IMG/VR virus record: IMGVR_UViG_3300042197_002316
Location: 1 to 24,825 of that record
Source of the DNA: a virus
Strand: one strand, 5' to 3'
DNA length: 24,825 nt
Shown: piece after piece, positions 4,914 through 24,825 of the stretch
Layout of the letters: each line of letters starts with the position of its first letter
Numbering within the stretch: the first letter of the stretch is position 1
Position numbers and translations under genes: made by a program
The notes under the pieces: generated by a model
The model's input: the letters and a program-made list of their open reading frames with translations, nothing else
The model's database searches: none
What the model was told of the DNA's origin: nothing

Positions 4914-4922
4914 CACCTGTAC

Positions 4923-4946: not shown

Positions 4947-4962
4947 CCTGGCGCATTCCTAA

Positions 4963-9183: not shown

Positions 9184-9204
9184 TTTTTAAGAATAACTTA
9201 AAAA
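9184..9204. other. AT-rich inverted repeat at gene junction
   Basis: TTTTTAAG (9184-9191) and CTTAAAAA (9197-9204) form a perfect 8-bp stem with a 5-nt loop. It overlaps the stop codon of the acidic-tail gene and lies just upstream of the exonuclease start (9172). It has no following T-run in the leftward direction, so an mRNA stability or weak attenuation element is more likely than a terminator. Confidence 0.35.
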
Positions 9205-9575
9205 GACAACGAGTAATTTACTGTACCGCTGTCATCATCGTCATCATCTTCGTCGTCTTCACAATCCTCTTCATCGTCTTCCTCCTCTTCGTCTTCATCG
9301 GAGTCTAGGTAAAACTCAGATACCTGATATTGAAAATCTTTTTGATTGCTGTTCAGTTCTTGGGAGAGGCAAAGGCTTGCGCAAAAACTTTCCCTAACAA
9401 TGTCTGCGCACTCTTCGGGAGTCCTGATTTCTCCGTCTGGGCTGATGCACTCTTCAAGGAGCTGGTTAGAAAGCAGTAAGGCAGCGATTTTATCAAGCTT
9501 GGCATTGGTGGCTGCCAGTTGTTCCACGATTTGCTTTTGGAACTCTTCGAGTCGCCGAACATTGGGTGAAGTCAT
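9198..9575 (-). CDS. helical protein with long acidic C-terminal tail
   Basis: A 125-residue protein of unknown family starting at ATG 9575-9573, in an ATGA overlap with the upstream stop (a longer frame begins at 9614 inside the upstream gene). The N-terminal third is a coiled-coil-like helix (RRLEEFQKQIVEQLAATNAK). The C terminus has an almost unbroken run of Asp/Glu from about residue 91 to 116, then ends in GTVNYSLSF. An acidic tail ending in Phe resembles the C-terminal tips of ssDNA-binding proteins such as T7 gp2.5 or SSB, and acidic runs also occur in DNA-mimic proteins. The position between a methyltransferase-like protein and a nuclease fits a DNA-transaction role. Function is inferred only. 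Confidence 0.75.
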   Translation of the reverse strand: MTSPNVRRLEEFQKQIVEQLAATNAKLDKIAALLLSNQLLEECISPDGEIRTPEECADIVRESFCASLCLSQELNSNQKDFQYQVSEFYLDSDEDEEEEDDEEDCEDDEDDDDDDSGTVNYSLSF

Positions 9576-10117
9576 AAATCTGGGAGAGAGGGAAGAGGAT
9601 CGACTTGATCCCAATTGATTCCGTAGGTTATTTGGGTTCCATCATGCCAGCGTTCTGGCTTCTGGAACACAAACCAACAAGCGGTTACGGAGTCTCGGCT
9701 GGAGCCGATGGCCCTAAATTTAGGCCGTGGGGACAGAACGATCATATTTGAAAGCTTATTTTTTAGTAAGAAGTCTCTCCGCTTGGCCGCCGGTTCAATG
9801 AAGGACAGTCTATCCAACACGGCAATCCCGCATTTAGCTATTTCTAATCCGTACTCAAGTATGTAATCGTTTTCTGGGTCCGAACCCAGCGTTGACGCCA
9901 CCACCCAGTCATGACCTTTGTCTCGCTCTCCCACCCACCAAATAGGGTTGGTTAAATTTTGTTTATCTGTGTTTGTCGTTACTTGATAATTGTGCCCTTT
10001 TAATTGATCCGAGAGTACATTTAATGGGTCGTATGGGACAAATATTTTTCCCTGCAGATAGGAATGTTTTATTAAGGTGTGGGTTACACCCTTTGGGATG
10101 CTGTAAAACGTAGACAT
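9572..10117 (-). CDS. methyltransferase-fold protein, catalytic motifs apparently lost
   Basis: A 181-residue protein whose layout follows small phage Rossmann-fold DNA methyltransferase-like proteins: strand 1 with KIFVPYDPLNVLSDQL (23-38), an interval, then DWVVASTL (70-77) where active enzymes carry D-x-V-x-NPPY, followed by ILEYGLEIAKCGIAVLDRLSFIEPAAKR (the amal-LL-R-FLE-R helix/strand unit), SPRPKF and TACWFVFQKP. The SAM-binding acidic/glycine motif I and the NPPY/F motif are not recognisable, so it is probably catalytically inactive, perhaps a DNA-binding or structural descendant. First gene of the leftward replication block after the nblA divergence, coupled by ATGA to the acidic-tail gene. 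The fold call is by eye. Confidence 0.6.
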   Translation of the reverse strand: MSTFYSIPKGVTHTLIKHSYLQGKIFVPYDPLNVLSDQLKGHNYQVTTNTDKQNLTNPIWWVGERDKGHDWVVASTLGSDPENDYILEYGLEIAKCGIAVLDRLSFIEPAAKRRDFLLKNKLSNMIVLSPRPKFRAIGSSRDSVTACWFVFQKPERWHDGTQITYGINWDQVDPLPSLPDL

Positions 10118-10826: not shown

Positions 10827-11627
10827 TTAAAAGTCAATCCCTAAGGCTTTTGCTTGCTCCTCAGTAAGTTCGACAGCTTTTTTAGAAGCTGCTTGTTCTT
10901 GTTTGGGAGCGGCAGCCGGAGGCAGAGCTTTTTCCTCGTTGGCTGAGGCAAGTTGCCTTTCACCACTAGAAGGATGGGACTCTGCAAATGCCGCTTTGAT
11001 TGCGGTGTGATCCGCACCTAAAGGAAGTTCGACCAAGGTGGACCCAGGTATATGGGACTTAAGAGCAGCAGCGATCATGTTTCCGCCATCTGCGTTAAGC
11101 CATGTGTTTACGTCTTCGATCAGCGCCTTCTCTTTGTCGTCAGCAGGCGGACGATCAGAGAATTCAAGAGCGTTGAAATTAATCTTGGCTCCGTCAGCTC
11201 CGGTCATTGGATCCTTCTCGTTAAACGAGCGAGTCACAAACTTCGAAGATGTAACAACAGACGCACAGTTAATGCGGTTGTTATAAAGGGTTTGGAAATA
11301 AGAGATAAAGTTCTTCTGACTCGATTTGCCAGAAATCATCGAAGTCGTTACACACCGAGGTGGAAGCAACCTGTGGCTAGGAGATACACCGATGTAAGCA
11401 ATACGGATAAATTCTTCCTGATTCCTCATTCCGAGATTACCGAAATAAGGAGTAAAGCCAATCAAGATAAACTCAATCGGTATACCGTTGTCGTTCTTAT
11501 CTACGATTGCTGAGTCAGGGTCAACATCGGATTTCCAACGACGAGCTTGAAGATCAATACGAAGAGTGTGCGGAGGAAGATTACAGAGAATTTCGTCTTC
11601 CGAAAAATTACCAGCGATAAATACCAT
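10827..11627 (-). CDS. possible ssDNA-binding/recombination accessory protein
   Basis: A 266-residue protein not securely recognised. The first 150 residues are beta-rich with conserved-looking stretches (IPIEFILIGFTPYFGNLG, EFIRIAYIGVSPSHRLLPPR). Residues 205-255 are an Ala/Pro/Gln/Glu-rich flexible linker, and the protein ends in the tip ALGIDF. Folded N-terminal half, disordered linker and short acidic-hydrophobic C-terminal tip is the architecture of ssDNA-binding proteins, and the next gene upstream encodes an OB-fold SSB with a similar end (GSIDFSL). An ssDNA-binding or annealing role is therefore suggested, not shown. It is followed by a strong terminator and starts 16 bases after the SSB stop. 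Confidence 0.6.
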   Translation of the reverse strand: MVFIAGNFSEDEILCNLPPHTLRIDLQARRWKSDVDPDSAIVDKNDNGIPIEFILIGFTPYFGNLGMRNQEEFIRIAYIGVSPSHRLLPPRCVTTSMISGKSSQKNFISYFQTLYNNRINCASVVTSSKFVTRSFNEKDPMTGADGAKINFNALEFSDRPPADDKEKALIEDVNTWLNADGGNMIAAALKSHIPGSTLVELPLGADHTAIKAAFAESHPSSGERQLASANEEKALPPAAAPKQEQAASKKAVELTEEQAKALGIDF

Positions 11628-11643: not shown

Positions 11644-12288
11644 TCAGAGGGAGAAATCGATAGAACCGAGAGCAGCAGCAGCTACTGTTCCTTTTTCTGG
11701 ATCAGCAGCTTTTTTAGGAGTTGTTTTAGAAGATTTAGGAAGGTACATAATTTTATCAACGTTATAGTTTAAATACAACTTCTCGTCTTTCTCGCTTGTT
11801 GAAACTTTACCAACGGCAATTGTCGGTGTTCCGGGGGCGAGTTCTGAAAGTTGTTTTGAAAGCTCAGCCCAGGCTGTGACTTTTGCCCACGAGGTTTCGC
11901 CGTTGTCATTTGGCCATGCCAGCGAGCGGTTTGTCACCGTCGTGTCATTAAGCTCAACTTCATCGGCTTTGGGTCCAAGTCCCCCGGTGATCATGAAAAG
12001 ATTGACGGCCAGCAGATCGTCAAAGTTTTCGTTTGTCACAACCAAAATCGGTTGCATTTGGAGAACACCATCGATGGTTGGCCGCGTGGGACCAATAGCC
12101 AGGACTGTTTGATTTTCTTTAAGTTCTTTAATAAGTTTGCCTACGTAATGAGTTTTTTGTTGAAGTAATTGAACTTTTGTAGGAACTCGTTTATCGCTTG
12201 CTGGTAGTGATTCAGCAAGGACATTTAAGATTCCTTCATTCTCATCAGCCTCTGCTGTGATTCGCAGACCCAGAAGAAAGACGTTCAT
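11644..12288 (-). CDS. ssb: single-stranded DNA-binding protein, OB fold
   Basis: A 214-residue SSB-like protein. N terminus MNVFLLGLRI corresponds to the first OB strand. Later segments fit the SSB core: the W-A-K-V-T-A-W-A-E-L-S-K-Q-L strand/helix (family: WGxxAE), GTPTIAVGKVSTSE (family: GDRVxVxGRL) and LYLNYNVDKIMYLP (final strand). A Lys/Ala-rich linker and the tip GSIDFSL follow, comparable to the SSB partner-binding tail though less acidic. It is about 40 residues longer than typical bacterial SSB, with a longer central insertion. It would coat ssDNA at the phage fork alongside the primase-helicase and family A polymerase. The start overlaps the upstream gene by 44 bases. Confidence 0.75.
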   Translation of the reverse strand: MNVFLLGLRITAEADENEGILNVLAESLPASDKRVPTKVQLLQQKTHYVGKLIKELKENQTVLAIGPTRPTIDGVLQMQPILVVTNENFDDLLAVNLFMITGGLGPKADEVELNDTTVTNRSLAWPNDNGETSWAKVTAWAELSKQLSELAPGTPTIAVGKVSTSEKDEKLYLNYNVDKIMYLPKSSKTTPKKAADPEKGTVAAAALGSIDFSL

Positions 12289-14067: not shown

Positions 14068-14577
14068 TTATGCTTTGTCGTTCCTTTCAAAAAATCTTCT
14101 CAATGAGTGTCCCCGTTTAACCACCATATCCAAAGTTTTTAAATTTAAGATTGCTTCCTCATATGTTCTATATGTCTTTGCTAGGTCTTTATCATTTACG
14201 TAAGTTACTACAGTTTGATCAGAGAGCATAGTGCTTACAAACTCTCCTTTTGGACTTACAATAATCCAAACCTCCCTAAATTTTAAACCGGTCTGCGAGG
14301 CCATCTCGGCTTCGGTGTAGAGTCGAGAGTTCCTTAGCAGTTTAAACGTATTTGTAGTTACGAAAGTATTTTTTTCGTTTTTAATGAGCGTTTTGATTTT
14401 GTGTTGTCGTTTTAGAGACCTGGCGTGGTTACTGGCACGTAGCGGAGAATCAAACTCCTCTTTGAGAACATAAAGAAAATTTTCACCCGTAATAACACCG
14501 AAGTATTTGTCTCCGTTCCTAACGGTAAAGATCTCTTTTTCTGGGGATTTAGGAAGTTCTAGAAGGAAATCGGACAT
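14068..14577 (-). CDS. hypothetical protein coupled to DNA polymerase
   Basis: A 169-residue basic protein of unknown family. The ATG at 14577-14575 shares a base with the polymerase stop (TAATG), so it is preferred over the start five codons upstream. It contains two similar alpha/beta-looking parts, KYFGVITGENFLYVLKEEFD and EVWIIVSPKGEFVSTMLSD, each a strand-turn-strand that could be a duplicated small domain, each followed by an alpha region with basic residues (ASNHARSLKRQHK; YRTYEEAILNLK). Coupling to polA suggests a replication accessory. The stop codon lies in a perfect 14-bp palindrome (14058-14071). Confidence 0.65.
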   Translation of the reverse strand: MSDFLLELPKSPEKEIFTVRNGDKYFGVITGENFLYVLKEEFDSPLRASNHARSLKRQHKIKTLIKNEKNTFVTTNTFKLLRNSRLYTEAEMASQTGLKFREVWIIVSPKGEFVSTMLSDQTVVTYVNDKDLAKTYRTYEEAILNLKTLDMVVKRGHSLRRFFERNDKA

Positions 14578-16472
14578 TACTTTGCTGCCCATGAGTCGCC
14601 TACATTAGCATCCGCAACCGAGGGAACGGTCTTCAAAACTTTTTGTGCTGCTTCAACCATAATTTTTTCCAACAAATTTTTATATTCCTCTGCCTTGTGC
14701 TCCACTACTTCTAAAACTATTTCGTCGTGTACACACGCCACCATGTACGCTTCGTCATTTAGATACTGATTAAGTTCTGCGATTGCGATTTTTAGTATGT
14801 CTGCTCCTGACCCTTGTATGAGCGTGTTGGCGCTGCACATCATTGTGGCATCGTCGTAGCTCAGAAGTCTTCTGCGGCCACAGGCTGTCCGAGTAAAAGC
14901 CCAGCCGTCAGCGACCAGAGCAGCTCGTTCCTGGTGCCACTCTCGCAGCCGTGGGTAAGCCGAGTGGAAGGCTGCGTGCGCCACTTTGGCTTCAGATAGT
15001 GAGATTATCTTCCCGCTTTGGGCTGCATATGTTTTGTATTTTCTAAAACCCATACCGTACTGAAGCGCGAAGTTCAGAGTTTTACCGTCTTGTCGTTCCT
15101 CCTTCGTAACGTCTTTGATATCTTTTTTGTAAATCAAACTGGCTGTCAAAATGTGCAAATCTATGTTCTCGTTAAACGCTTTTTTCATCTGAGGGATATT
15201 AATCAATTCGGCTCCTAGTCTTAGCTCTATTTGCGCCCAGTCGCAGATGACCAGTTTGAATCCTTTCGTAGCTGTAAATATCTCTCTGAAATCTTTTGAC
15301 CGGGGTATCTGTTGAATGTTTACCCCGAAAACCGTCTTGGTCTTTGTTTTCGCGACTTTAGGGGATCCGCTACTCGTAAATCTTCCAGAGTTAGCTCCGA
15401 ACTGATTGTATCCAGAATGTATTCTGTGTGTAACAGGATTAACGTTGTCTATCAGTTTGTCTACGTGTTCTAAACGCGTTTCTATTTTTGCTCGTTCCCT
15501 ATAAAGGTTAAGAGTTGGATCTTGGCTGTCAAACTCAGATAACGCAATTTGATTTAATGTAAATTTACCTGTGTCTGCATTCACGGGGAGTTCGATTCCT
15601 GCTTCAGTAAACGCAGAAATGACTTGTGCGGTAGAACCAGGGTTAAATTCTTTACCCGCTTTTTTACCAATGAGAACCAAACCATCCTCTCCTCGCGGCA
15701 GTCTTTTTTCTCCCGGTAAACGTTTATCCAAGCTCTCTACGAACTCAGTGTTAACTGCGTTTAAATCTTCTGTTATTTTACTTTTTAATGCTTTTAATTT
15801 TGTAACATCAACATTAAATCCTCTGTAGCACATTTTTGCTACTGGGCGAATACACTTTGACTCCAAAGTGTAAATGTCTAAAAGGTTTTCCTCTTTGATT
15901 TCCTTCAACTGTTCCGCAGCAATTGCGGGAAGAATGTCAACGTCTTTGGACGCGTATTCAATTTGCTCAAGAGTTAATTCAGGTTGACTCCAATCAGTAA
16001 GTCGTTGTTCTTTATCTATCTCAACTCCCAGTCGCCTTTCTGCCACCGCTTTTAACGAACACGAGATGTCAGCAAAGTAGGGTTTGTTCTTTTGAGGAGA
16101 TACTTTTTTCTCTTTAAATCCTGCTCGTAACACACGTTCGGCAATGTATGTATCGAACACTTTGTTTCGATAATCGATATCTAATAAGTACAAAAACTGT
16201 AAATCGAAATTGGCGTTGTGTAAAACCAATAATTCTCTAGATTCGATTAGGTGTTTAAGTTCTTTAGATACATTTAATTTAAATAAATCAAAGACGTAAA
16301 CTGTTCGATCTTCAACGGTAGGGTCTGCTTCGCAGACTTGAAGCAAGCGTATTTTTGCAATTCCAGCTTGAAGCCCCGTGGTTTCAGTATCAAGGCAGAG
16401 CTTTAGTTTCGGCTGGAGTTGACAAATAGCCTGCTGTGCTTCCTGATCGTTTGTCAGATAAACAGTTTTCAT
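14577..16472 (-). CDS. polA: family A DNA polymerase with 3'-5' exonuclease
   Basis: The phage replicative polymerase, 631 residues, without a 5' nuclease domain. Proofreading domain of DEDDy type: Asp28-x-Glu30 (LDTETTG), Asp90 (HNANFD), Tyr173-x3-Asp177 (YASKD). Polymerase domain: motif A ICDWAQIELR (Asp411), motif B RQDGKTLNFALQYG with Arg460, Lys464, Phe468 and Tyr472, and motif C CVHDEIVLEV (His582-Asp583-Glu584). Phe468 corresponds to E. coli Pol I Phe762, the nucleotide-selecting residue; in phage surveys Phe or Tyr here goes with lytic replication, Leu with temperate. The ATG follows directly on a terminator T-run (16477-16483). Identification is certain. Confidence 0.97.
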   Translation of the reverse strand: MKTVYLTNDQEAQQAICQLQPKLKLCLDTETTGLQAGIAKIRLLQVCEADPTVEDRTVYVFDLFKLNVSKELKHLIESRELLVLHNANFDLQFLYLLDIDYRNKVFDTYIAERVLRAGFKEKKVSPQKNKPYFADISCSLKAVAERRLGVEIDKEQRLTDWSQPELTLEQIEYASKDVDILPAIAAEQLKEIKEENLLDIYTLESKCIRPVAKMCYRGFNVDVTKLKALKSKITEDLNAVNTEFVESLDKRLPGEKRLPRGEDGLVLIGKKAGKEFNPGSTAQVISAFTEAGIELPVNADTGKFTLNQIALSEFDSQDPTLNLYRERAKIETRLEHVDKLIDNVNPVTHRIHSGYNQFGANSGRFTSSGSPKVAKTKTKTVFGVNIQQIPRSKDFREIFTATKGFKLVICDWAQIELRLGAELINIPQMKKAFNENIDLHILTASLIYKKDIKDVTKEERQDGKTLNFALQYGMGFRKYKTYAAQSGKIISLSEAKVAHAAFHSAYPRLREWHQERAALVADGWAFTRTACGRRRLLSYDDATMMCSANTLIQGSGADILKIAIAELNQYLNDEAYMVACVHDEIVLEVVEHKAEEYKNLLEKIMVEAAQKVLKTVPSVADANVGDSWAAK

Positions 16473-16476
16473 GGAG

Positions 16477-16505
16477 AAAAAAAGCTCCCCGACAGGCGAG
16501 GAGCT
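16477..16505 (-). terminator. strong intrinsic terminator before polA
   Basis: Read leftward: AGCTCCTCG pairs with CGGGGAGCT (9 bp including one G-T wobble) over the loop CCTGT, then seven T residues. It follows the winged-helix-like gene (16528-17313), and the polymerase ATG (16472) begins four bases after the T-run. It should stop most transcripts before polA. Confidence 0.88.
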
Positions 16506-16527
16506 GATGATAGTGGTTTTGAACTGG

Positions 16528-17313
16528 TCAGCGAGCCATGCAGAAGTTCATGACATAATCATTAATGTCTGCCCAAAGTTTAACAAGCTCCTCACCTCGC
16601 TCCGTAGCTTTAACTTTATAAAAGACACGTTGCATTTGATTGATGCTGGATCCCGTTGCTATATTAGAACCGTAAGAAATCCCGTTTTTTTGCTGCACCA
16701 ACCCGTGTTTACGACACCAGATCAAACCTTCACGTAAACCGATGTACAACGGCGAAACATGGAACGTGAGCTTGCGCTCAATTGACGGTCGCAGCTCTAC
16801 CGGCTCATACAAACCGTTGTATCGGTTTAGCTCAAACCCTTTGTAATTTAGAGACAAAGGGTTGAAGGAGTGGTTATTTACGAAATCGCAAGCGATTTCT
16901 TTAAGGGTTTTCCACTCTCCCTTGCTGGTTGCTTGAAGCAACATGGCAGCGCCTGTCGCCCAGTTTGATTGATGCGAATTTAACTTCTCAATAAGGTCTT
17001 CAACCTTTACTGAATCGTTAGTCTTCTCAAAGTTTTTGGTTACTTTTGAGGTAATTTTTTTAGGGGATTTTGCAGCCATCGTGGGAGCCTTACGGGTATT
17101 CATTGCGATCTTCCACGCAATGTCCACCAAGCCCTTGTTATTGTTTTTAACAGCCATCTCAAACAACTTTTGGCTGTCCGTGAAGCTGCCTACAATAAAT
17201 TCGCTGAGATCGACTTTGATAGGCTTTGAGCTACCTCCCAGGCTAGGTTCCATCAAAGCTAGAACCTCGTTGCGATCGAGAGGCAGGTCTTGCAAAAGGA
17301 ATTGGATAGTCAT
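16528..17313 (-). CDS. winged-helix-like protein of unknown function
   Basis: A 261-residue protein. The N-terminal half is helical with a basic linker (KSPKKITSKVTKN). The C-terminal 90 residues look like a winged helix: LREGLIWCRKHGLVQQ (recognition helix region) followed by RVFYKVKATERGEELVKLW, the strand-wing-helix ending common in PadR/MarR-like regulators. It might therefore regulate the adjoining genes or bind DNA at replication. It is followed by a strong terminator before polA and preceded by an intergenic region with direct repeats. No homologous family can be named. Confidence 0.65.
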   Translation of the reverse strand: MTIQFLLQDLPLDRNEVLALMEPSLGGSSKPIKVDLSEFIVGSFTDSQKLFEMAVKNNNKGLVDIAWKIAMNTRKAPTMAAKSPKKITSKVTKNFEKTNDSVKVEDLIEKLNSHQSNWATGAAMLLQATSKGEWKTLKEIACDFVNNHSFNPLSLNYKGFELNRYNGLYEPVELRPSIERKLTFHVSPLYIGLREGLIWCRKHGLVQQKNGISYGSNIATGSSINQMQRVFYKVKATERGEELVKLWADINDYVMNFCMAR

Positions 17314-17390
17314 GTCAATAAGGGATGACGTGTGAACAATACTAACGTGTGAAAGGGTTGTCTAGGGTCTGGTCTAAATTTAATGTTTAT
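17314..17390. promoter_or_regulatory. intergenic region with ACGTGTGAA direct repeats
   Basis: ACGTGTGAA occurs at 17328-17336 and 17345-17353, one and a half helical turns apart (17-bp period). This 77-bp gap lies between the leftward genes ending at 17391 and starting at 17313. The repeats could be an operator or activator site for the winged-helix-like gene and for polA beyond it. No good -35/-10 pair was found, though TAGTATTG lies between the repeats on the minus strand. Confidence 0.4.
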
Positions 17391-17786
17391 TTAAGTTTTA
17401 GAGTTCTGTAGAGTTTGAAGCTCTTCGTGAGTGGCGTCTATCCAGCCGTTTATATCTCTAGCAATTTCTGAGCTTATATATTCTTTGTCCACTAAATCTA
17501 AAATACAAATTTGTTCTAATGCTGTAAAACACTCCATACCGTACAGATGTTTTGTGTAATCTACAATTGATATTTGGTTCTCTTTCCAAAATGCGTTCTC
17601 ATAATTGGAATAAATTAAGTTGAACTTGTTATTTGCACCGTCACATTTTATTAAAGTGTTTCGATAAAACACTGACTGATTTTTGGAATTAAAGAAGAGA
17701 CAAGTTAGTAACCAACGGCAAAGTTTGTCAAACTCCAACACGGATCCACCATACTCTTTTACTAAGTCCTCTATTTCAGTCGACAT
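17391..17786 (-). CDS. hypothetical protein
   Basis: A 131-residue acidic protein, mostly helical, with several Cys residues (CRWLLTCLFF, CFTALEQICIL) and no membrane helix of full length. No family is recognised. The start overlaps the upstream small gene by 11 bases. It is the last gene of the MoxR/VWA operon. Confidence 0.65.
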   Translation of the reverse strand: MSTEIEDLVKEYGGSVLEFDKLCRWLLTCLFFNSKNQSVFYRNTLIKCDGANNKFNLIYSNYENAFWKENQISIVDYTKHLYGMECFTALEQICILDLVDKEYISSEIARDINGWIDATHEELQTLQNSKT

Positions 17787-18006
17787 AAATGGAGCTCCAT
17801 TTTGGGGATCCGTTTACTACACCATTGCAAATAAATAGTTCCTGTCTATCTAAACAATACCAAAAGTCTCCTACTTGAGCGCTTTTTGGCATAGTGGATT
17901 TGGTTACAGAAAACGCTTCTGCGACCTTATTGACTTTTTCTTTATAGTAGTTACTTACTTGTTCAATTTCATCTAAAATGTTTTCTAGTTTTTTAGTGTC
18001 GTTCAT
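17776..18006 (-). CDS. small protein with tail-like beta-hairpin motif
   Basis: A 76-residue protein from the ATG at 18006-18004, in an ATGA overlap with the VWA gene stop. The N-terminal half is a helix (KKLENILDEIEQVSNYYKEK). The C-terminal half, QVGDFWYCLDRQELFICNG followed by PKWSSIYVD, matches the G-D-x-W-Y-x-D-x-x-x-x-L-x-x-x-x-x-W pattern of beta-hairpins in phage tail fibres and minor structural proteins. Small helical stalk plus hairpin suggests a virion-associated or assembly-related protein, so its coupling to the MoxR/VWA pair is notable. Confidence 0.65.
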   Translation of the reverse strand: MNDTKKLENILDEIEQVSNYYKEKVNKVAEAFSVTKSTMPKSAQVGDFWYCLDRQELFICNGVVNGSPKWSSIYVD

Positions 18007-19559
18007 CGAACGCATTTTAAAAGGGCATCGACCGTTTCATTCTGATTGCGAGTATCAACCGTAAATACCTCGTCGCTAAAAGATTTACAGACAGAGGGCA
18101 TTGAATCTCCAATGCAAATGGTGGACCATTGAGTACCTGTGTTGTTTTTAAATTCCTCCAACCTTTTTAGTAGTTTAGGGTTTACGTCTGAATGTCCGTC
18201 CGTAATCATGAGAATGTCAGCACGATCATCCAGCTCGGCATCGTTGAGCACGTGGGAAATAACGCAATTAAATGCCGTGCCTCCGCCAGATACTCTGCGT
18301 CCCACTAAATCAAGTAATTCACTGTTGTTTTTCCTGACGGAATCCAGTACGGTTTCACTTTTAATAACAGTATCAAACAAATAAATATGTACACTTCGCT
18401 TTTGTTTCAACGCTTTTTCCGCCACAACAAACATAACGGCTTTACTCCACAGCTCCGATTCTCCCATCATTGAACCTGACACATCGACATACATAACCAC
18501 AGGGCCTTTCGCTAAATCCCTAGCCGTGGCAGTGTAGTCCTTGATAAACAAAGTCTTTTGTGAGTATTTAAGAGCGAAAAGAGCTTTGCCCTCTGGTGTA
18601 TTCGCTAGTGCAATCTCGCTAGGAAAAGCTTTTGTTAAATCGTTTCCGTAACGAGCTCCAGTAATTGATTCATATGATGCTGTGATTTTTTTCTGTCTCT
18701 TCCTCAACACCCAAGCACGTTTCAAAGCACCTAACTTTTTAGCGATTTCTCTCAAGTGCTTACTTTGTTCCAGTTTTTTAGCTAAAGATTTCTTCTCGTT
18801 TAAATCTGTTGTTTCTGAAAGCGAGCCTTCGTTATCTCCATACATATTGCTCATGTTCTCAGACATCTCGTCATTGCTTTTTACTGCACCGTCAACAACG
18901 TTATCTACTTGTGCCTGTACTAACTGTTGAGCCTTTTGAATTTCTTCTGTTAGCTTTTGATTTAATTCTTTTCCATCCTGCCTAGCCTTTGCAGCCGTGG
19001 CCTTATCTCCAGCTTTAATCGCGTCTTTAAATCTTTGCCTGAGCTTTTCTAATTCTTCACCACTTTGAGTTAACAATTCGATGTCAACTGATTGAGATTC
19101 AATAAGCCGTTCAATGTATTCAGACAGCTCGTTGAGAATATTGATTGCGTTATTACCTGCGTTGAATTGAGAACCATAACTTCTTTTCAGAATTTCTCCC
19201 CATGCTGCAGCTTGGCTGAGCTCAGACATAATCGCCCACCAGAACCCATTTTCAGGTTTATATCCGTCGGGCAGATCCGCTTTTTCTCCGTTACATACTT
19301 TCCTGTAGTAAGTTTCGTAATCTTCTTCAGACACTAACCACTTAACATTGTCTGCGTTATACAAGCGTTCAAATAGTTCTTTCCCGAAACGTGAGAGCTG
19401 TTTAATGTTGTATTTCTCAATAAGATATTTTACTGATGGACGAGCTTCGCGAACAAAATCATCCCAGAGAAAATCAGCAAGAGCTGAGCACGCCAGAGTA
19501 AGAGGTGCGTTGTCTACAAGGTGAATCAGTTCAGTTTTAGTTTCGAGAGAGAAGTTCAT
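18003..19559 (-). CDS. VWA-domain protein, ViaA-like
   Basis: A 518-residue partner of the MoxR ATPase encoded immediately upstream. Residues 1-150 are helical; 150-300 are a charged coiled-coil region. From about 300 the sequence follows ViaA: RYGNDLTKAFPSEIALA (ViaA: GDDINRLLPSEL), then a VWA domain with MIDAS residues Asp359-x-Ser361-x-Ser363 (DVSGSM), Thr428 (GGGTAF) and Asp454 (ITDGHSD). In E. coli, RavA-ViaA acts as a chaperone-like AAA+/VWA pair tied to respiratory complexes and membranes; phage annotations often call similar proteins CobT. The ATGA overlap with the ATPase gene implies equal production. No signal peptide. The family is firm; the phage role is unknown. Confidence 0.88.
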   Translation of the reverse strand: MNFSLETKTELIHLVDNAPLTLACSALADFLWDDFVREARPSVKYLIEKYNIKQLSRFGKELFERLYNADNVKWLVSEEDYETYYRKVCNGEKADLPDGYKPENGFWWAIMSELSQAAAWGEILKRSYGSQFNAGNNAINILNELSEYIERLIESQSVDIELLTQSGEELEKLRQRFKDAIKAGDKATAAKARQDGKELNQKLTEEIQKAQQLVQAQVDNVVDGAVKSNDEMSENMSNMYGDNEGSLSETTDLNEKKSLAKKLEQSKHLREIAKKLGALKRAWVLRKRQKKITASYESITGARYGNDLTKAFPSEIALANTPEGKALFALKYSQKTLFIKDYTATARDLAKGPVVMYVDVSGSMMGESELWSKAVMFVVAEKALKQKRSVHIYLFDTVIKSETVLDSVRKNNSELLDLVGRRVSGGGTAFNCVISHVLNDAELDDRADILMITDGHSDVNPKLLKRLEEFKNNTGTQWSTICIGDSMPSVCKSFSDEVFTVDTRNQNETVDALLKCVR

Positions 19560-20746
19560 GATGTTGTCAGATCGTTGATTGCTTTAGCTAGTGTTTCGCA
19601 GTGAGTTTGAAGTTGTCGTGTAAGTTTGACTCCGTTCGACCGAACGGTTACTGACATTTTAAATTTGTTTCCGTCCAAAACCTCGTTCACTTTTTCGTGA
19701 ACTGTAGACATATCTTTGTGAAACTTACGAAGCTGTATAACCATGTCGTTCAGATCGCCCAAACCCCTGGCTTGATGTCTAGAGTGCACAGCACTATATT
19801 CAGCCATGATTCCTGTTGCCGCTCTCCGCGCATCATTCAATACACGTTCAGCCGTGGGAATCTCCTGCTCCAACACTGCTTTGATGACATCTTTGTCCTC
19901 CTCAGATTGATACACAATGTGAATCACTGAGTTGTGCATGTGTTCTGGGCTTAGCTCATCATCCCCTTGTACAATCGCCCAAGCTTTAAGGAACTTAAGA
20001 ATTTGTACGCGTCGACGATCTGAGATGCTGATGCTTCGTTGTTCAAGCATCTCCCACACGCTACTAAATTTTGAAAGAAAATCTTCTGAGATATTTATGT
20101 TTGCTGCAGCTGTCTGAAGAGCGTCTAGCTCATCCAAAGTTAGAAAGCAAGCTACCTCCGGTCTATCTTGGATACCAGCTGCCCACTGATCAAGCAGAGC
20201 TTTTGAAGCAGGCTTACGCAGTTTGCGAACCGTAGGTCGAAACAGAAATCTATCGGCAAATGCCTGCAAAGATTCTTCATCTGCCCATGTATTCGTAGCA
20301 GCGATGATGGATTGAATCGGAGTTTTAATGTTCTGTTTTCCGTTGTTAAACGTTCGCTCGTTAAGCAGAGTCAGCAACGAATTCAGAATTGCGGATGATC
20401 CGCGAAAGAGTTCATCTAAGAATGCGATGTGAGCGGAGGGCAGGTAACCATCAACATCTCTGGTGTATTCATCCTGCAGCAATTTTGTTACTGCTACAGG
20501 ACCAAACACCTCGGATGGGTCCGTTGTGGGCGTAAGAAGATAACCAAAGTAGTTAGCCCCTTCAATCCCGGAACACAATGTCCGAACAAGATCTGATTTA
20601 CCTGTTCCTGGTTCTCCCAGAAGGAATGCGTTTTGTTTGCTTAACAAGGTAGCCAGCAAACCGTCAACGATTTCTTCACGTTCAAGAGCTGAGTTGTTGA
20701 GAGCGGATCGAAAATTTTGCAGCTTAATAAAGAGAGTTTCGTTCAT
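19556..20746 (-). CDS. MoxR-family AAA+ ATPase, RavA-like
   Basis: A 396-residue ATPase. Walker A GEPGTGKS (44-51), TPTTDPSEVFGP (72-83, the MoxR/RavA signature), Walker B IAFLDELF with Asp111-Glu112, sensor 1 Asn152 (AATNTW) and Arg166 in FADRFLFR. The C-terminal 200 residues are helical, replacing RavA's LARA region with another arrangement. MoxR proteins remodel or load partners that carry VWA domains; here the partner follows in an ATGA overlap. Similar phage genes are sometimes annotated cobS (cobaltochelatase), but no cobalamin gene is present. Its start is coupled (ATGA) to the small gene upstream. Confidence 0.92.
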   Translation of the reverse strand: MNETLFIKLQNFRSALNNSALEREEIVDGLLATLLSKQNAFLLGEPGTGKSDLVRTLCSGIEGANYFGYLLTPTTDPSEVFGPVAVTKLLQDEYTRDVDGYLPSAHIAFLDELFRGSSAILNSLLTLLNERTFNNGKQNIKTPIQSIIAATNTWADEESLQAFADRFLFRPTVRKLRKPASKALLDQWAAGIQDRPEVACFLTLDELDALQTAAANINISEDFLSKFSSVWEMLEQRSISISDRRRVQILKFLKAWAIVQGDDELSPEHMHNSVIHIVYQSEEDKDVIKAVLEQEIPTAERVLNDARRAATGIMAEYSAVHSRHQARGLGDLNDMVIQLRKFHKDMSTVHEKVNEVLDGNKFKMSVTVRSNGVKLTRQLQTHCETLAKAINDLTTS

Positions 20747-20955
20747 TGCTTTGAAATTGGAGAGAGCCGTGGAAAATCAATAAATGAAGCTTTTACTGTG
20801 CATTCTGTAGTTAGTACACCACTAACTGCACTCAGTTTCTCAACTGCGACATCGTAGTCTACAAATACAGCAGCTTTATAAATGTCGTTTGTATATTCTT
20901 CAATGTCATAAAGAAAACCTTTATGTGATTGAATTACATAAATTGATTTTTTCAT
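20743..20955 (-). CDS. small hypothetical protein in MoxR/VWA operon
   Basis: A 70-residue protein with no recognised family, predicted as a small alpha/beta fold (KKSIYVIQSHKGFLYDIEEY, then a helix AVEKLSAVSG and a strand TVKASFIDF). It starts in a one-base overlap (TGATG) with the DUF3150-like gene and ends in ATGA with the MoxR gene, so it belongs to the same translational unit. Confidence 0.7.
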   Translation of the reverse strand: MKKSIYVIQSHKGFLYDIEEYTNDIYKAAVFVDYDVAVEKLSAVSGVLTTECTVKASFIDFPRLSPISKQ

Positions 20956-22205
20956 CAGAAGTCCGTTTCAAGGTCGTCAGTTGGTGCGTCTGTTTCTTTA
21001 ACGTCGTTGATCAGTTGATCAATATTTTCGGAAGCATCTTCAATAAGTTCTTTACGTTGAGCGATGAGTTTCTTAAGCTGCTTCGAACGTTGCTCGTAGA
21101 TGTCAACCTCTAGGTTTACATCGCGCATAAGCAAGTTAAGTGCGTTGGAATTTTCTGCTGTTTTAATCTTCTCGCAGAGAATTTTGTAGGAAGTAGAAAG
21201 CGCGAGTGATTGCTTGAGCTTCTCCAAACCTTGAGAGGAATCACGTGAAGAACAGAGCTCAGTCAATTCTTGTCGAATCTCATCCTGCGTGGAGATCAGA
21301 TCTGCGGAAGCTTCATTACGGACATTGAAATCTTTAGCCTGAAGCTTGTTACCGATGTCTAGAAGTTTTTCAACGAGCTGAGTAAGAACTTCAAAGCCAG
21401 GAACAGAGTTACTGATGAGCTGTAATCGTTCAGCAGTAATCTGCCAGGACCCACGTTTTTTAGGTGAACCTGTCTGCTGCTTACCAATCTTGCTAACATG
21501 TCGGGCATCAAGATCGTCAAGAAGTTGTGCGCCGAGATTAAGTGCGCGATCTGCTGCGTTTTGTTTGGCTGCCTGAAGAACTTGTTGTGTGTTGACGCTG
21601 TTCTCATAAGCGATAAGAGCATCTACATCTTCTTCGATAGGCTTACTTACCTTTTCCAGAGTTACAGGCAGCGGACCAAGAACGCTTACTCGAATTGGTT
21701 TCTTGTATTCTTCTTTAGTCGGGAAGAATCTCATGTACGCTTCAAACGCCATTTTGTATTCCACATCATCAATAAACAGAGGACGCAGAATGCTCTCGGT
21801 TGTCTTTTGCCAACGTTCGAATTCATCTTCCCAAACCTCCTTCATTCGAAGGTTTGCTTCTCCAGCTTCTGTTCGGATCTCTTTAATTAGTTTGTTAGCG
21901 TCATAAAAATAACTGCTAGTGACAAAATGAGAATCGCCGTAATGAATGCAATAGCCGTCATAAAGTTCACGCTGACGGATGCGAAGTTGATCCAGTTCTT
22001 TCTTGAGAGCATTTGAAAGGTTGGGGCGAATGCTCACCGTGTTTGCTTCTTCAAGAGTGTCAATAACACTTTTAGGAAGTTTCAGATCATCAAATTTGAT
22101 CTGAACACTCTGCCTAACATCAGCAGAAATGGAGCAGGAAAGAAGGTAGTGAGAAATCATAGCAGTAAAAATAAAATGAAGTACAGGAGCGGTGTGTGAC
22201 CGCAT
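20955..22205 (-). CDS. DUF3150-like coiled-coil protein
   Basis: A 416-residue helical protein at the head of the MoxR/VWA operon. The first 180 residues (RRELYDGYCIHYGDSHFV-like segment, then WEDEFERWQK, then RFFPTKEEYKKPIRVSVL) recall DUF3150, a family I associate with MoxR/CobS and VWA genes in bacteria and phages; this is pattern memory, not a search result. The last 150 residues are coiled coil with a DAPTDDLETDF acidic end finishing in Phe. An AGGA five bases before ATG 22205 supports that start; another ATG at 22160 is possible. It could be the substrate adaptor or scaffold on which the ATPase and VWA protein act. Confidence 0.7.
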   Translation of the reverse strand: MRSHTAPVLHFIFTAMISHYLLSCSISADVRQSVQIKFDDLKLPKSVIDTLEEANTVSIRPNLSNALKKELDQLRIRQRELYDGYCIHYGDSHFVTSSYFYDANKLIKEIRTEAGEANLRMKEVWEDEFERWQKTTESILRPLFIDDVEYKMAFEAYMRFFPTKEEYKKPIRVSVLGPLPVTLEKVSKPIEEDVDALIAYENSVNTQQVLQAAKQNAADRALNLGAQLLDDLDARHVSKIGKQQTGSPKKRGSWQITAERLQLISNSVPGFEVLTQLVEKLLDIGNKLQAKDFNVRNEASADLISTQDEIRQELTELCSSRDSSQGLEKLKQSLALSTSYKILCEKIKTAENSNALNLLMRDVNLEVDIYEQRSKQLKKLIAQRKELIEDASENIDQLINDVKETDAPTDDLETDF

Positions 22206-22239
22206 GAGAATCCTACACGATCTGTAGAATCTTATGCGT

Positions 22240-22249
22240 TTTATACTGT
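22240..22249 (-). promoter_or_regulatory. ACAGTATAAA element
   Basis: ACAGTATAAA on the minus strand, 35 bases upstream of the DUF3150-like start. The same decamer occurs on the plus strand at 23217-23226 and 24787-24796. It may be a second -10 region or a phage-specific element. Confidence 0.4.
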
Positions 22250-22256
22250 TTTGAAG

Positions 22257-22285
22257 ATCTTATCTGTAACAGTCTTTACAATCAA
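22257..22285 (-). promoter_or_regulatory. sigma70-type promoter of MoxR/VWA operon
   Basis: Read leftward: TTGATT (22285-22280), 17-bp spacer, TAAGAT (22262-22257). It lies about 50 bases upstream of the DUF3150-like ATG. Spacing is ideal and both hexamers are close to consensus, so host sigma70 could transcribe this operon early. It overlaps the stop codon of the gene at 22282. Confidence 0.65.
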
Positions 22286-22704
22286 CGCTTAAGGCGCGTG
22301 AAGGCAAGCGAAACTTTATCGGTCAGTTCGTCGCAATCGCCACTAGCCACGAGCTGTTCAGCCGTGTGCTTGAGCTGTAGCTTTGCAACCTTAAGTTCTG
22401 CTTCCAGTTTCTCAACCCGAGCAGCAAGTTTCTCAAGTTTGGAATGAGGCGTGGGGACCCTGGTGATACGAACGACGATGTTCGTATTGAACTGGTTGTA
22501 CTTAAAACGGCTATCAGAACCTTGAAAGCAGCTTAGATCCATACCCTCTGACTCTGCGAGTTTAAAGTCACGCAGGAGGTTATCTTTAGCTGCTTCGAAC
22601 GTAACGCCAAAGGAAGCGTTCAGTTCGGTTTGAGCGGTGTCGCATTCATCGTAAGCCTCAGCAGCTGTGGCGCCAAGACCTACCAAGTCGGTTGTGCGGA
22701 TCAT
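22282..22704 (-). CDS. hypothetical coiled-coil protein
   Basis: A 140-residue protein. Residues 10-60 are helical and acidic; a short beta segment (NTNIVVRITRVP) follows; residues 88-118 are a clear coiled coil (LEKLAARVEKLEAELKVAKL). No family is recognised. The ATG at 22704 follows a 115-base structured leader and no ribosome site is obvious. The operon promoter for the next leftward gene lies just past its stop, so it appears to be a separate transcription unit. Confidence 0.7.
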   Translation of the reverse strand: MIRTTDLVGLGATAAEAYDECDTAQTELNASFGVTFEAAKDNLLRDFKLAESEGMDLSCFQGSDSRFKYNQFNTNIVVRITRVPTPHSKLEKLAARVEKLEAELKVAKLQLKHTAEQLVASGDCDELTDKVSLAFTRLKR

Positions 22705-22819
22705 GGTTTTGAAGTGGATGTGATGTAGGAGTACCCCAGACGGGGTGAAAGCACCTCGTTAAGGGTCGGTGCCACCCATGGTCTGTATCGTACTGAAAAT
22801 TGGTGCATCCGTCAACCCC
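22705..22819. promoter_or_regulatory. structured leader region
   Basis: A 115-base gap holding two hairpins in tandem: ACCCC/GGGGT with the loop AGAC (22733-22746) and GCACC/GGTGC (22751-22755 with 22768-22772). In the leftward transcript they form the 5' leader of the gene starting at 22704. A third partly paired element (GTCAACCCC/GGGGTAGAC, about 22811-22836) surrounds the stop of the next gene. No T-run, so they are not intrinsic terminators; a regulatory leader or processed RNA is possible. Confidence 0.35.
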
Positions 22820-22999
22820 TTAGCGGCGGGGGTAGACAGTCACATAGTTATTTGGAAGACAAGGATTTGCTTCTAAGAACTCTATTTTCGCTTTTTCCAG
22901 CGATTCTGCTTGAATCCTGCTATCGAATCTCCATCCGATCTTGGGCTTTTTCACGAAAACGTCGAATTCGTGCTGTGTCTTGGTTTTTGAAGGGTGCAT
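22820..22999 (-). CDS. small basic protein
   Basis: A 59-residue ORF, ATG at 22999-22997 and TAA at 22822-22820. Its sequence (KTQHEFDVFVKKPKIGWRFD, then a helix SLEKAKIEFLEANP and final YVTVYPRR) reads as a compact alpha/beta protein and is more convincing than the opposite-strand frame over the same region. No family is recognised. It belongs with the small early-type genes of the right edge. Confidence 0.6.
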   Translation of the reverse strand: MHPSKTKTQHEFDVFVKKPKIGWRFDSRIQAESLEKAKIEFLEANPCLPNNYVTVYPRR

Positions 23000-23245
23000 T
23001 GAAACAGTGCAACGTCAAAAGTTTATCAGATGAGGTTAAACTTATCGTCATTGTTACTTATTTGTAACGAGCACACTATTTGACATGACGCGATAGCTCG
23101 TCCGAAAATACAATACATAATTACTTTCCTCTAATTTCTGCTTTTACTTAACGTAAATTTCGTTTTTCGTCGCCATTATGTATCTCAGTGAACAACAGTA
23201 GAAACTATACGTTGCTACAGTATAAATAGATACAAAGTTAAAATT
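23000..23245. promoter_or_regulatory. AT-rich divergent control region
   Basis: A 246-bp region between a leftward and a rightward small gene. It contains a GTTAC/GTAAC inverted repeat (about 23053-23068) and a TTTAC/GTAAA inverted repeat (about 23143-23157). On the minus strand a 30-codon ORF (23118-23026, MYCIFGRAIASCQIVC...) is preceded by GAGGAA at good spacing; it could be a leader peptide but its composition is unconvincing. Promoters for both directions are expected here; only the ACAGTATAAA element is recognisable. Confidence 0.4.
23217..23226 (+). promoter_or_regulatory. ACAGTATAAA element, probable -10 region
   Basis: ACAGTATAAA lies 19 bases before the ATG of the small rightward gene at 23246, at the distance expected for a -10 element with a short leader. 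There is no clear -35. It is shared with 22240-22249 (minus) and 24787-24796 (plus). Confidence 0.45.
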
Positions 23246-23365
23246 ATGAAAAAACCATTCCTCATTTCCTGGGCTTCACTCAAGCTCTCTATCATCAATT
23301 CTCAAAAAGCTAGTAAGGCAGCTCTGATTCGAGAGTTGAAAGAGAAAAAAGGCGCTATCGCTTAA
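23246..23365 (+). CDS. 39-residue basic peptide
   Basis: A rightward ORF (MKKPFLISWASLKLSIINSQ, then a Lys-rich helix ending KEKKGAIA). It starts after a short AT-rich leader with a promoter-like element and overlaps the convergent gene end by four bases. Amphipathic and basic, so it could bind nucleic acid or a host protein as small early phage proteins do, but no homology is recognised. Confidence 0.45.
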   Translation: MKKPFLISWASLKLSIINSQKASKAALIRELKEKKGAIA

Positions 23366-23613
23366 ACTTCTGTGCTGTTCTTGCGTATAATGTTCAGCGT
23401 GTGCTTAGGGTTAATTGGTTTGCGTACACAAATGTATTGATCTGGAACTGTACCTTTTAGGGTCTCTAGTCTGTGCGTCTTCTCTGGGCAGCTATCTTTA
23501 ACCAGGCTGTTCATTTGTGCTTGAATCAAGCAAAAAACGAGCCACATAAAAAATGCCAAACTAAAACCAATGAGGTGTCCCTTGTTGAAACCAAAAGCGG
23601 AGAGTTTGATCAT
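23362..23613 (-). CDS. small membrane protein
   Basis: An 83-residue protein with one strong transmembrane helix near the N terminus (LIGFSLAFFMWLVFCLIQ), preceded by a short basic N terminus, and a hydrophilic 45-residue C-terminal part with two Cys that could lie outside or inside the membrane. No family is recognised. Its ATG follows two bases after the upstream stop, so it is in an operon with the gene at 23616. Confidence 0.65.
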   Translation of the reverse strand: MIKLSAFGFNKGHLIGFSLAFFMWLVFCLIQAQMNSLVKDSCPEKTHRLETLKGTVPDQYICVRKPINPKHTLNIIRKNSTEV

Positions 23614-23615
23614 GT

Positions 23616-23918
23616 TTAATCTTCAGTAACGGACCAGCAAAGATCGTCGAAGTTTGCAATTTTATCTAAAGATTCTCCGTAAAACACAATTCCCCTGGCG
23701 TCCACACTACGTATTTCAAACTTGTTGAACTTGAGGTTAACCAACATACGTTTTACTTCGTCTACATCTTCCAGCATTATGTTGTAGGCTTCCTCCATGT
23801 CCCCACGATCTAACGCTTTATCTATGTTGTCAAAATCAAAAAGCTGGTGAGCTTGAGAAAAAGATAATGTAAAGCCCTGCATTTCAGGCTTTATCTCAAT
23901 TTCATCAGAGTGATTCAT
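23616..23918 (-). CDS. acidic hypothetical protein
   Basis: A 100-residue acidic protein (many Asp/Glu, FDFDNIDKALDRGDMEEAYN), predicted helical with a C-terminal beta part (FEIRSVDARGIVFYG). It overlaps the upstream gene by 14 bases. No family is recognised. Acidic small proteins in phage early regions often inhibit host nucleic-acid enzymes, which is only a general possibility. Confidence 0.65.
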   Translation of the reverse strand: MNHSDEIEIKPEMQGFTLSFSQAHQLFDFDNIDKALDRGDMEEAYNIMLEDVDEVKRMLVNLKFNKFEIRSVDARGIVFYGESLDKIANFDDLCWSVTED

Positions 23919-24111
23919 TGTTCTCCAAAGGATAAAAACGAATTAGGTGTTTTGGTAGTGAATAACGTGTGAGAGCAAAGGCATACGCACCGCTCGTGGA
24001 GTTAAAAGAGTTTCGTTCAATGTGAGCGTTACTTTCTTCCACACAAAGTAAATACTTTTGAGGTTTTAGTTCAATAAGTTCAGCCGTCTTGATAAAAGTT
24101 GTAGGTTTCAT
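23905..24111 (-). CDS. small hypothetical protein
   Basis: A 68-residue protein starting at ATG 24111-24109 (a TTG two codons upstream is the alternative). The segment YLLCVEESNAHIERNSFNST, followed by SGAYAFALTRYSLPKHLIRFYPLE, looks like a compact alpha/beta unit. Overlaps both neighbours (32 bases with the gene upstream, 14 downstream). A similar Thr/Ser-Ala-Tyr-helix feature, SSAYKLKEHFIVK, occurs in the gene at 24585, which may indicate distant relatedness. Confidence 0.6.
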   Translation of the reverse strand: MKPTTFIKTAELIELKPQKYLLCVEESNAHIERNSFNSTSGAYAFALTRYSLPKHLIRFYPLENNESL

Positions 24112-24316
24112 CAGCAAGTGAAGGAGTAAAAATAATTGAAGACAACGGATACTTAAAAGTATTCGCTATCTGCAAACATAGATCCTCGGGATCTTTAGCA
24201 TCCCATTCTTTATTGCGCACCTCATCACAGATGTGAGAGTGCACAACAGATACTTCTTGTTCCGTTAAATCAATAGGTTCGATGTCGAATGAAACTGATA
24301 CTACTTTGTACTTCAT
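24080..24316 (-). CDS. small acidic hypothetical protein
   Basis: A 78-residue protein with no recognised domain (KYKVVSVSFDIEPIDLTEQE, then helix VSVVHSHICDEVRNKEWD and a C-terminal PLSSIIFTPS strand). Starts 11 bases after the upstream stop. Part of the leftward chain of small early-type genes. Confidence 0.6.
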   Translation of the reverse strand: MKYKVVSVSFDIEPIDLTEQEVSVVHSHICDEVRNKEWDAKDPEDLCLQIANTFKYPLSSIIFTPSLADETYNFYQDG

Positions 24317-24327
24317 TAGTGTGTACT

Positions 24328-24513
24328 TCAGTTGTAACGTGCAGGTTCGTCTGCAACAAACTCAGAATCATTCCATTCCACAATGTGACCAAGTTCTTCA
24401 ACTGTGCAGTTAGTCGTTGTGAGCAATTTGTAAGCTGCATTTGCTTCTGCTTCAGTTGGACATGTGATGTAACCGGAATCAGTGACGGAGAAATAGATAC
24501 GAAACTCAGCCAT
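24328..24513 (-). CDS. small hypothetical protein
   Basis: A 61-residue protein, MAEFRIYFSVTDSGYITC at the N terminus, then a helix EAEANAAYKLLTTTNCT and an acidic C terminus. A beta-alpha-beta arrangement. No family is recognised and no ribosome site is seen upstream of the ATG. Confidence 0.6.
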   Translation of the reverse strand: MAEFRIYFSVTDSGYITCPTEAEANAAYKLLTTTNCTVEELGHIVEWNDSEFVADEPARYN

Positions 24514-24584
24514 GATGCAACATAAAAAGGTTGGCGCTTAATCATACCCAGTATGCGGGGGAATGGCTAGAAGCTGAAATAAAC

Positions 24585-24779: not shown

Positions 24780-24786
24780 CCGTCAC

Positions 24787-24796
24787 ACAGTATAAA
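24787..24796. promoter_or_regulatory. ACAGTATAAA element at right edge
   Basis: Third copy of ACAGTATAAA. Read on the plus strand it would drive a gene beyond the window; read on the minus strand it supplies TATACT just upstream of the gene starting at 24779. The orientation cannot be decided from this window. Confidence 0.35.
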
Positions 24797-24825
24797 GTTT
24801 GTTGGGTACAAGACCATCTTATTTA

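Follow-up and report, generated by a model that had tools for sequence, protein, structure and literature searches.

Gene layout and family placement of the ATPase and VWA protein

The window analysed here is an entire virus record, IMG/VR IMGVR_UViG_3300042197_002316, of 24,825 bp, and it carries a gene cluster for a MoxR-type AAA+ ATPase, a VWA protein and a third component that we call the leader. There are six minus-strand open reading frames (ORFs) in the cluster, running from 22205 down to 17391 with head-to-tail overlaps of 1-13 nucleotides (nt), as the first-pass annotation had described. The leader gene (20955..22205; 416 amino acids, aa) encodes a mostly helical protein whose hypervariable tail ends, throughout the alignment, in an invariant C-terminal Asp-Phe. 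It is followed by a semi-conserved gene for a 70-aa protein (20743..20955), which lies between the leader and the RavA-like ATPase (19556..20746; 396 aa). The ViaA-like VWA protein (18003..19559; 518 aa) has an intact metal-ion-dependent adhesion site (MIDAS). Two small genes complete the cluster: one for a 79-aa, hairpin-like protein of patchy conservation (17776..18015) and one for a rarely conserved 131-aa protein (17391..17786). The small genes were taken from the ORF list, and the ATPase and VWA protein were placed by profile matches.

The first 15 residues of the leader are not conserved in the alignment, so its true start is probably near 22160 rather than at 22205. There is no sigma70-like site of at least 9/12 on the minus strand between 22160 and 22282, and a scan over 16400-24825 gave 11 such sites against 14.8 expected by chance. 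The single good sigma70 promoter that had been proposed for the cluster is therefore not supported. A search for RNA families gave no match.

The two core proteins retain their functional residues. Among 18 aligned ATPases, Walker A (G44, P46, G47, T48 and K50), Walker B (D111 and E112) and N152, D243 and R244 are invariant, and the five MIDAS residues (D359, S361, S363, T428 and D454) are invariant among 18 aligned VWA proteins. The full set of AAA+ motifs and the intact MIDAS reported from the first reading are thus confirmed. The segment GNDL..FPSE, which had been put forward as a trait of ViaA, does align with GDDIL..LPPE of a Salmonella ViaA when profiles are compared.

The ATPase matches the Pfam model bpMoxR (5e-56) and phrog_19600 (2.7e-70), and it matches RavA in the Protein Data Bank (PDB; 6e-60, profile positions 6-293). 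The VWA protein matches VWA_CoxE in Pfam (1.8e-7) and phrog_24053 (1.2e-33). Both match the NCBIfam models of RavA (4e-40) and ViaA (1.5e-12), at 138 bits and 47.5 bits against equivalog cut-offs of 681 and 500, respectively. Because these scores fall far under the cut-offs, the label should be 'RavA/ViaA-like', and plain 'RavA/ViaA' is wrong. In hhalign comparisons the ATPase gave P 1.4e-38 against RavA and 2.4e-9 against plasmid CobS-like proteins; the VWA protein gave P 7.7e-14 over 265 columns against ViaA and 1.8e-5 over 146 columns against plasmid CobT-like proteins. The CobS/CobT models TIGR01650 and TIGR01651 do not match the window pair at E<=0.01. By these hhalign and NCBIfam scores the pair is far from CobS/CobT, and we reject that label, which the first-pass annotation had already doubted.

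RavA-ViaA is thus the nearest known pair by profile, and the likeness includes the segment preceding the VWA domain. The phage ATPase matches only residues 8-299 of the 497 of RavA, and the rest of RavA is unmatched; that part we take to be the region named LARA/triple-helix. The phage pair also differs from RavA-ViaA in its link to replication genes and in having a third gene.

The leader and the conservation of the module among phages

The leader had been described as DUF3150-like. No Pfam family matches it above cut-off, and its relatives give only scattered weak matches. The DUF3150 model PF11348 finds neither the window leader (E<=1) nor anything in 10 related records (E<=10), and it does not appear among the 25 of 31 families listed for 20 leaders. 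A comparison of profiles nevertheless suggests a remote similarity. A profile of 71 of the 72 leaders (one was too short) was aligned by hhalign with one of 23 real DUF3150 proteins. The score was 31.1 (P 0.0033, probability 10%) over 112 colinear columns that begin near both N-termini. This score is above all 26 control comparisons (maximum 22.7), all 150 column shuffles (maximum 24.9) and the reversed profile (22.2). Additionally, the leader gene is placed beside AAA ATPase and VWA genes, as DUF3150 genes are. The profile score is suggestive of homology between the leader and DUF3150, short of proof. The AlphaFold2 model of the leader (predicted local distance difference test, pLDDT, 69) shows mainly helices and a disordered tail, and a PDB search with it gave no match at E<=0.001. 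No relatives of the leader were found at E<=0.1 among 50,697 phage records, or in bacterial genome contigs with the two patterns used.

Viral contigs scanned with the ATPase, the VWA protein and the leader yielded one large lineage. The set of MoxR relatives comprises the best 80 of 137 loci, of which 77 belong to this lineage and three are distant. Of 73 testable lineage contigs, 72 have the leader upstream of MoxR. Where it is seen with MoxR it is always on the same strand, and the two genes are no more than 350 nt apart in 63/74 cases. The VWA gene is present in 74/77 lineage loci, and the other three end inside MoxR or within about 300 nt after it. The small genes fared differently in this survey: the 70-aa gene is fairly well kept (44/75 testable contigs), whereas the 79-aa and 131-aa genes are poorly kept (28/73 and 7/73). 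The leader, MoxR and VWA genes, by contrast, are close to universal in the sampled lineage.

The conserved neighbours lie outside the cluster. They are u140, a 140-aa gene upstream of the leader (22282..22704; 67/68 testable relatives); g261, a 261-aa gene between the VWA gene and polA (16528..17313; 71/73); and the gene for a family A DNA polymerase, PolA (14577..16472; Pfam DNA_pol_A 5e-64; 70/73). The counts for g261 and PolA were made within the fetched flanks, and all three genes are on the minus strand. The run u140-leader-MoxR-VWA-g261-PolA forms a one-strand block in nearly all 77 lineage loci, as far as each locus reaches. The block runs on to o174, o190 and a gene for a single-stranded DNA-binding (SSB)-like protein in most of the loci that extend that far. 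In the window this last gene, ssb214 (11644..12288, minus strand), encodes a protein ending GSIDFSL that matches the Pfam SSB model below cut-off (0.0029).

The exception among the 73 contigs is L057. Within its positions 1-6200, and among the best 80 of 137 loci, it is the sole lineage contig with MoxR, VWA and enough upstream sequence, yet without the leader or u140. Several small genes starting ..ITPPPEL.. stand in their place. Similar genes of about 225 aa are present in L027 (4816-5487), L030 (11414-12097) and L023 (11225-11902), and in these three contigs they sit between the 70-aa gene or the leader and MoxR. No homing endonuclease was recognisable on reading the inserted ORFs of L027, L030, L031 and L023; no family search was run.

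A comparison with an isolate places the lineage. Synechococcus phage S-EIV1 has a terminase with 52% identity to the one encoded by an 86-kb member, G001, and the two phages share further genes in the terminase region at 68% and 43% identity that are annotated as hypothetical. Judged from position these genes are presumably structural, and to name them capsid or portal would be a guess. Because of this kinship, the lineage probably infects cyanobacteria. Primase and exonuclease relatives are also common to S-EIV1 and the lineage. No match in S-EIV1 was seen at E<=10 for the leader, MoxR, VWA, u140, g261, o266, ssb214, o190 and o174, and the PolA of S-EIV1 shares only 23% identity with that of the lineage. 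The terminase region is thus retained relative to S-EIV1 while most of the module block differs. This suggests that the module moves together with replication genes rather than virion genes; the best evidence for this is the comparison with S-EIV1, a single isolate.

Several other MoxR-VWA systems are comparable in part. Acidianus two-tailed virus and the group 2.2 jumbo phages, like the window, encode a MoxR-VWA chaperone pair. Excerpts of one paper give these pairs a proposed role in tail or virion assembly, and report a fused metallopeptidase in the jumbo phage pair (PMC7824862). A search of the phage collection gave no leader homologue at E<=0.1. Adjacent MoxR and VWA genes are also present in Aphanizomenon phage CL131 and Moorella phage MTATph1, where they are 30-35% and 24-27% identical to ours, and the gene next to the VWA gene of CL131 is an annotated sliding clamp. 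A leader homologue was not found in either phage, in searches of which one was made without a positive control. A term search of the text of the CL131 paper gave no mention of MoxR or VWA (PMC6293099). In Mycobacteriophage Lumos there is an AAA gene without an annotated VWA neighbour within the 9.3 kb examined. The MoxR-vWA ternary conflict systems with VMAP or iSTAND share the idea of a third component, and the match of the phage ATPase to bpMoxR (5e-56) is a further likeness; no VMAP, iSTAND or beta-propeller Pfam model matches the leader at E<=1. We also considered a defence system and rejected it: PADLOC gave nothing for the VWA protein or the leader, and a weak AAA match for MoxR alone.

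C-terminal tips in the phages and in DUF3150 elements

All 72 distinct leaders end in Asp-Phe. The last two columns of the alignment have zero entropy, while the preceding 14 columns range from 1.95 to 3.44 bits. A codon test was used to exclude that constraint on the DNA itself, for instance from a signal serving the following gene, keeps the tip invariant. The codons of the tip vary synonymously (GAC 44 and GAT 28; TTC 56 and TTT 16), and all three stop codons are used. Because the Asp, Phe and stop codons all vary in this way, the selection on the leader tip, as read from these alignments, is on the protein.

This tip is rare among the proteins of these phages. Only 14 of 625 proteins predicted from five long contigs and the window end in DF, and 12 of the 14 are the leader (6/6) and a second protein, o266 (6/6). 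The gene for o266, a 266-aa protein (10827..11627, minus strand), is highly conserved and lies in the same block as the module. The first-pass annotation had noted neither this shared ending nor the setting among replication and recombination genes. In a tail survey of the best 80 of 360 loci, o266 ends G[IL][DEN]F in 80/80 (DF 67, EF 11 and NF 2). There are related endings on two more proteins: the tail of ssb214 is SIDFSL in 74/75, and o138, a small protein (9198..9614, minus strand) with a long acidic tail, has a run of acidic residues and then a terminal F in 56/59. From its place in the block, o266 would act in replication or DNA processing. It has no match to SSB profiles, and a PDB search with its model (pLDDT 53) gave none at E<=0.001. 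The strand-helix order of that poor model gives a mere impression of an oligonucleotide-binding (OB)-like fold.

There is a second set of three-part modules outside these phages. DUF3150 was found in 1,168/72,556 plasmid records, many with an equal match score and so probably near-copies, and in 5/274 and 8/398 bacterial genomes, with one genome common to both sets. A sample of 199 genomes from the phylum to which G012 belongs gave no DUF3150, and the control genomes were equally without a match. In 15 plasmid stretches AAA is annotated in 15/15 and VWA in 14/15, and bet/RecT and an exonuclease in most. The neighbours of a DUF3150-AAA-VWA module are often genes for ssb, RecT/Bet and an exonuclease, and a similar layout is seen in several bacterial elements. 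In the one element examined, L164, the AAA and VWA proteins match the CobS and CobT models. In IncA, IncC and other MOBH plasmids, and likewise in bacterial genomes, the DUF3150-AAA(CobS-like)-VWA(CobT-like) modules have a three-part architecture in common with the phage module. Their frequent link to ssb, RecT and exonuclease genes parallels the block that the phage module forms with PolA and the SSB-like gene. They differ in that the ATPase and VWA set is distant by profile, the gene order is different and the third component is only remotely similar.

In these modules, too, the third component has a conserved C-terminal tip that recurs on another protein, here one of recombination. DUF3150 ends in an aromatic residue in 21/22 elements and the exonuclease in 11/14. 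Aromatic ends are also seen on the WGR-like or small neighbour (6/7), and rarely or never on AAA (1/17) and VWA (0/18). Within elements the DUF3150 and exonuclease tips form pairs such as NSFYF/SSFYF, DCYF/SAYF and IMVF/YVVF. This matching exceeds all 50,000 reshufflings (p 2e-5, 14 elements, relatedness uncorrected), and the last two residues are identical in 6/14 pairs within elements compared with 11/182 between elements. DUF3150-AAA and DUF3150-VWA pairs show no matching (p 0.34 and 0.48).

A search with the exonuclease family YqaJ, which was meant as a negative control, yielded two more elements, G427 (NFWF/TFWF) and G535, in which the DUF3150 and exonuclease genes are on separate contigs of the genome. 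In G535 the non-aromatic DUF3150 tip ELVL is matched by the exonuclease tip ELVI. This element (L169/G535) was first excluded for its non-aromatic tip and was readmitted after the independently found exonuclease showed a matching one. YqaJ proteins from genomes without a DUF3150 match have an aromatic end in 1/24, compared with 11/14 in the elements (Fisher p 3e-6). For this comparison 24 of 29 loci were used; L294 and L317 (G427), L298 (G523), L300 (G569) and L301 (G535) were left out because their four genomes have DUF3150 matches. The tip tables have one row per distinct element. The near-duplicates L203 and L206 were removed before counting, and L165, L204 and L205, which are near-copies of L164, L195 and L199, are not included. 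The exonuclease and 'WGR-like' roles in unannotated elements were assigned by us.

A protein with a DUF3150-like tip lies beside the AAA gene in five elements: L194 (4136-5044), L195 (4294-5175), L164 (5137-5907), L174 (8330-9187) and L201 (7454-7807). It is annotated as WGR in L201 and is hypothetical or unannotated in the other four. Downstream of the DUF3150-VWA module of a bacterial genome, L172, there is an ORF (2421-3563) that by eye resembles a DNA polymerase sliding clamp.

Proposed function and alternatives

MoxR-VWA pairs are held to act as a chaperone with a substrate adaptor, according to excerpts of three papers (PMC7824862, PMC7159879, PMC7911831). Because the third subunit and DNA-processing proteins bear the same tip, that tip may be recognised by the machine itself or by a partner they share. 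We tentatively favour the former, with somewhat less than even confidence: the module would be a tag-addressed remodeller of replication and recombination complexes whose tips are captured by VWA/MoxR. On the pattern of RavA-ViaA and NorQ-NorD, MoxR would form the ATPase ring and VWA would be the adaptor that bears the MIDAS. The leader would be a DUF3150-like third subunit, whose flexible tail carries the tip found on o266 and, nearly, on the SSB-like protein (IDFSL). The tip would serve as an address label, the pair would capture the tips of DNA-bound replication and recombination proteins, and ATP would then be spent to dismantle or remodel the complexes that bear them. The leader's own tip may act as a tether or built-in pseudo-substrate that keeps the machine ready. 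ClpX, which acts on the C-terminus of Mu transposase, offers an analogy for tip capture. Tip binding by MoxR/VWA, remodelling as the outcome and the choice of complexes are what we infer from these shared endings.

There are several points that weigh against this proposal. The 45.8-kb contig of L057 carries MoxR and VWA, and the leader was not found there. Since S-EIV1 replicates although it lacks the module, all that the block argument addresses is which genes travel together. The leader fails the Pfam model PF11348, and hhalign's own probability for its homology with DUF3150 is weak. The phage tip is exact in two families and near in one, all within a single lineage, and for o266, which fits no family and is poorly modelled, a replication role is guessed from block position. 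Among the plasmid and bacterial elements, RecT and SSB tips match DUF3150 in some cases only (p 0.14 and 0.57 over the last three residues). L198 breaks the matching with an exonuclease that ends SFQ, and L199 matches loosely. The elements are also related, which the permutation tests ignore, and the residues before the tip match somewhat as well (positions -10 to -7, p 0.011; -9 to -6, p 0.0009).

The tips could instead be docking peptides, as are those of the SSB C-terminus and T7 gp2.5. Their receptor would then be a common component of the replisome, for example PolA or a clamp, and the tips would only gather the parts; MoxR/VWA, although still replisome-associated, would not read them. 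The phage tips do resemble those of gp2.5 and SSB in being disordered, partly acidic and ended by Phe; o138 has the long acidic tail with its terminal F, and the SSB of S-EIV1 ends DEPF. There are also candidate partners, since PolA is encoded within the block, the clamp-like ORF of L172 (by eye) is near its module and the annotated clamp of CL131 adjoins the VWA gene. The DUF3150 tips fit less well, being mostly aromatic and without an acidic-Pro-Phe pattern. They vary from element to element along with the exonuclease tip, suggesting that the element itself encodes the receptor, and the 15 annotated plasmid stretches have no annotated DNA polymerase although AAA is present in all of them and VWA in all but one. 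We consider docking unlikely, if plausible. The module would belong to replication and recombination whether its tips are captured or docked; the two readings differ in the receptor.

The remaining alternatives separate the module from replication. A chaperone for assembly of the tail or head, as proposed for p618/p892 of Acidianus two-tailed virus and for jumbo phages, has published proposals for other viral MoxR-vWA pairs behind it (excerpts of PMC7824862), and the profile of the 79-aa hairpin-like protein matches a 293-aa protein of G001 at 8e-7. However, S-EIV1 lacks the module but has relatives of the lineage's terminase and structural-region genes, the genes that flank the module in the lineage loci are PolA and the SSB-like gene, and the hairpin gene is patchy. 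The aid to virion assembly raised by the first-pass annotation is therefore disfavoured, and we regard it as improbable. It is a little less probable again that the pair takes over the host by remodelling respiratory, photosynthetic or membrane complexes; in E. coli, RavA-ViaA acts on respiratory complexes. The profile kinship with RavA/ViaA would fit, as would the respiratory enzymes named as RavA-ViaA partners in excerpts of two papers (PMC3893208, PMC10585395). Against this, RavA beyond about residue 299 is unmatched, and the leader, which is so far restricted to these phages, has a tip in common with a replication-block protein; we found no evidence for the remodelling of host membrane or photosynthetic complexes that had been suggested. 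Finally, it is very improbable that the pair are cobaltochelatase subunits that aid the synthesis of cobalamin, a role proposed in archaeal tailed viruses. Such genes carry this annotation in other viruses (PMC8651126, in excerpt), but the profiles put the pair with RavA/ViaA, no CobS/CobT model matches, and no cobalamin family was found among the 18 window proteins that were scanned against Pfam, the remaining ORFs lying outside that scan.

If tip capture is the right reading, the tip being a tag that the machine reads, then there is a concrete prediction of substrates with two residues at stake. Viral MoxR-VWA pairs and DUF3150 genes are already known, and sequence evidence has led to the pairs being labelled cobaltochelatase or virion chaperone (excerpts of PMC8651126 and PMC7824862); the shared tag is the new element. 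DUF3150 is unnamed in the literature searched, from which subscription papers and preprints were largely outside scope. Titles and abstract openings on phage MoxR-VWA-DUF3150, CobS/CobT, SXT, s067 and cyanophage MoxR do not describe shared tips. It is also possible, though we hold this with more reserve, that AAA+/VWA machines with a DUF3150-type third subunit are a widespread and unrecognised class of tag-addressed remodellers that has arisen at least twice. Each element would have its own tag code, carried alike by the third subunit, by the exonuclease and by further DNA-processing proteins. There would be different ATPase branches: a RavA/ViaA-like one in cyanophages and a CobS/CobT-like one in conjugative elements, the IncA/IncC backbone among them.

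Some further genes were seen in the course of this analysis. Between the SSB-like gene and PolA in the window there is a gene for a 405-aa protein (12814-14031) with a Pfam match to DUF4214 (7.9e-19); it has a visible internal repeat and is present in part of the relatives only. In G001 (L119-L123) there is a gene (4556-5095) with 52% identity to the S-EIV1 gene annotated as ferritin-like, together with a short homologue (16266-16625) of the S-EIV1 S-adenosylmethionine (SAM) decarboxylase gene. In a distant relative, the 186-kb contig L116, an ORF near the MoxR-VWA pair (14310-15992) resembles by eye a Ro60/TROVE protein.

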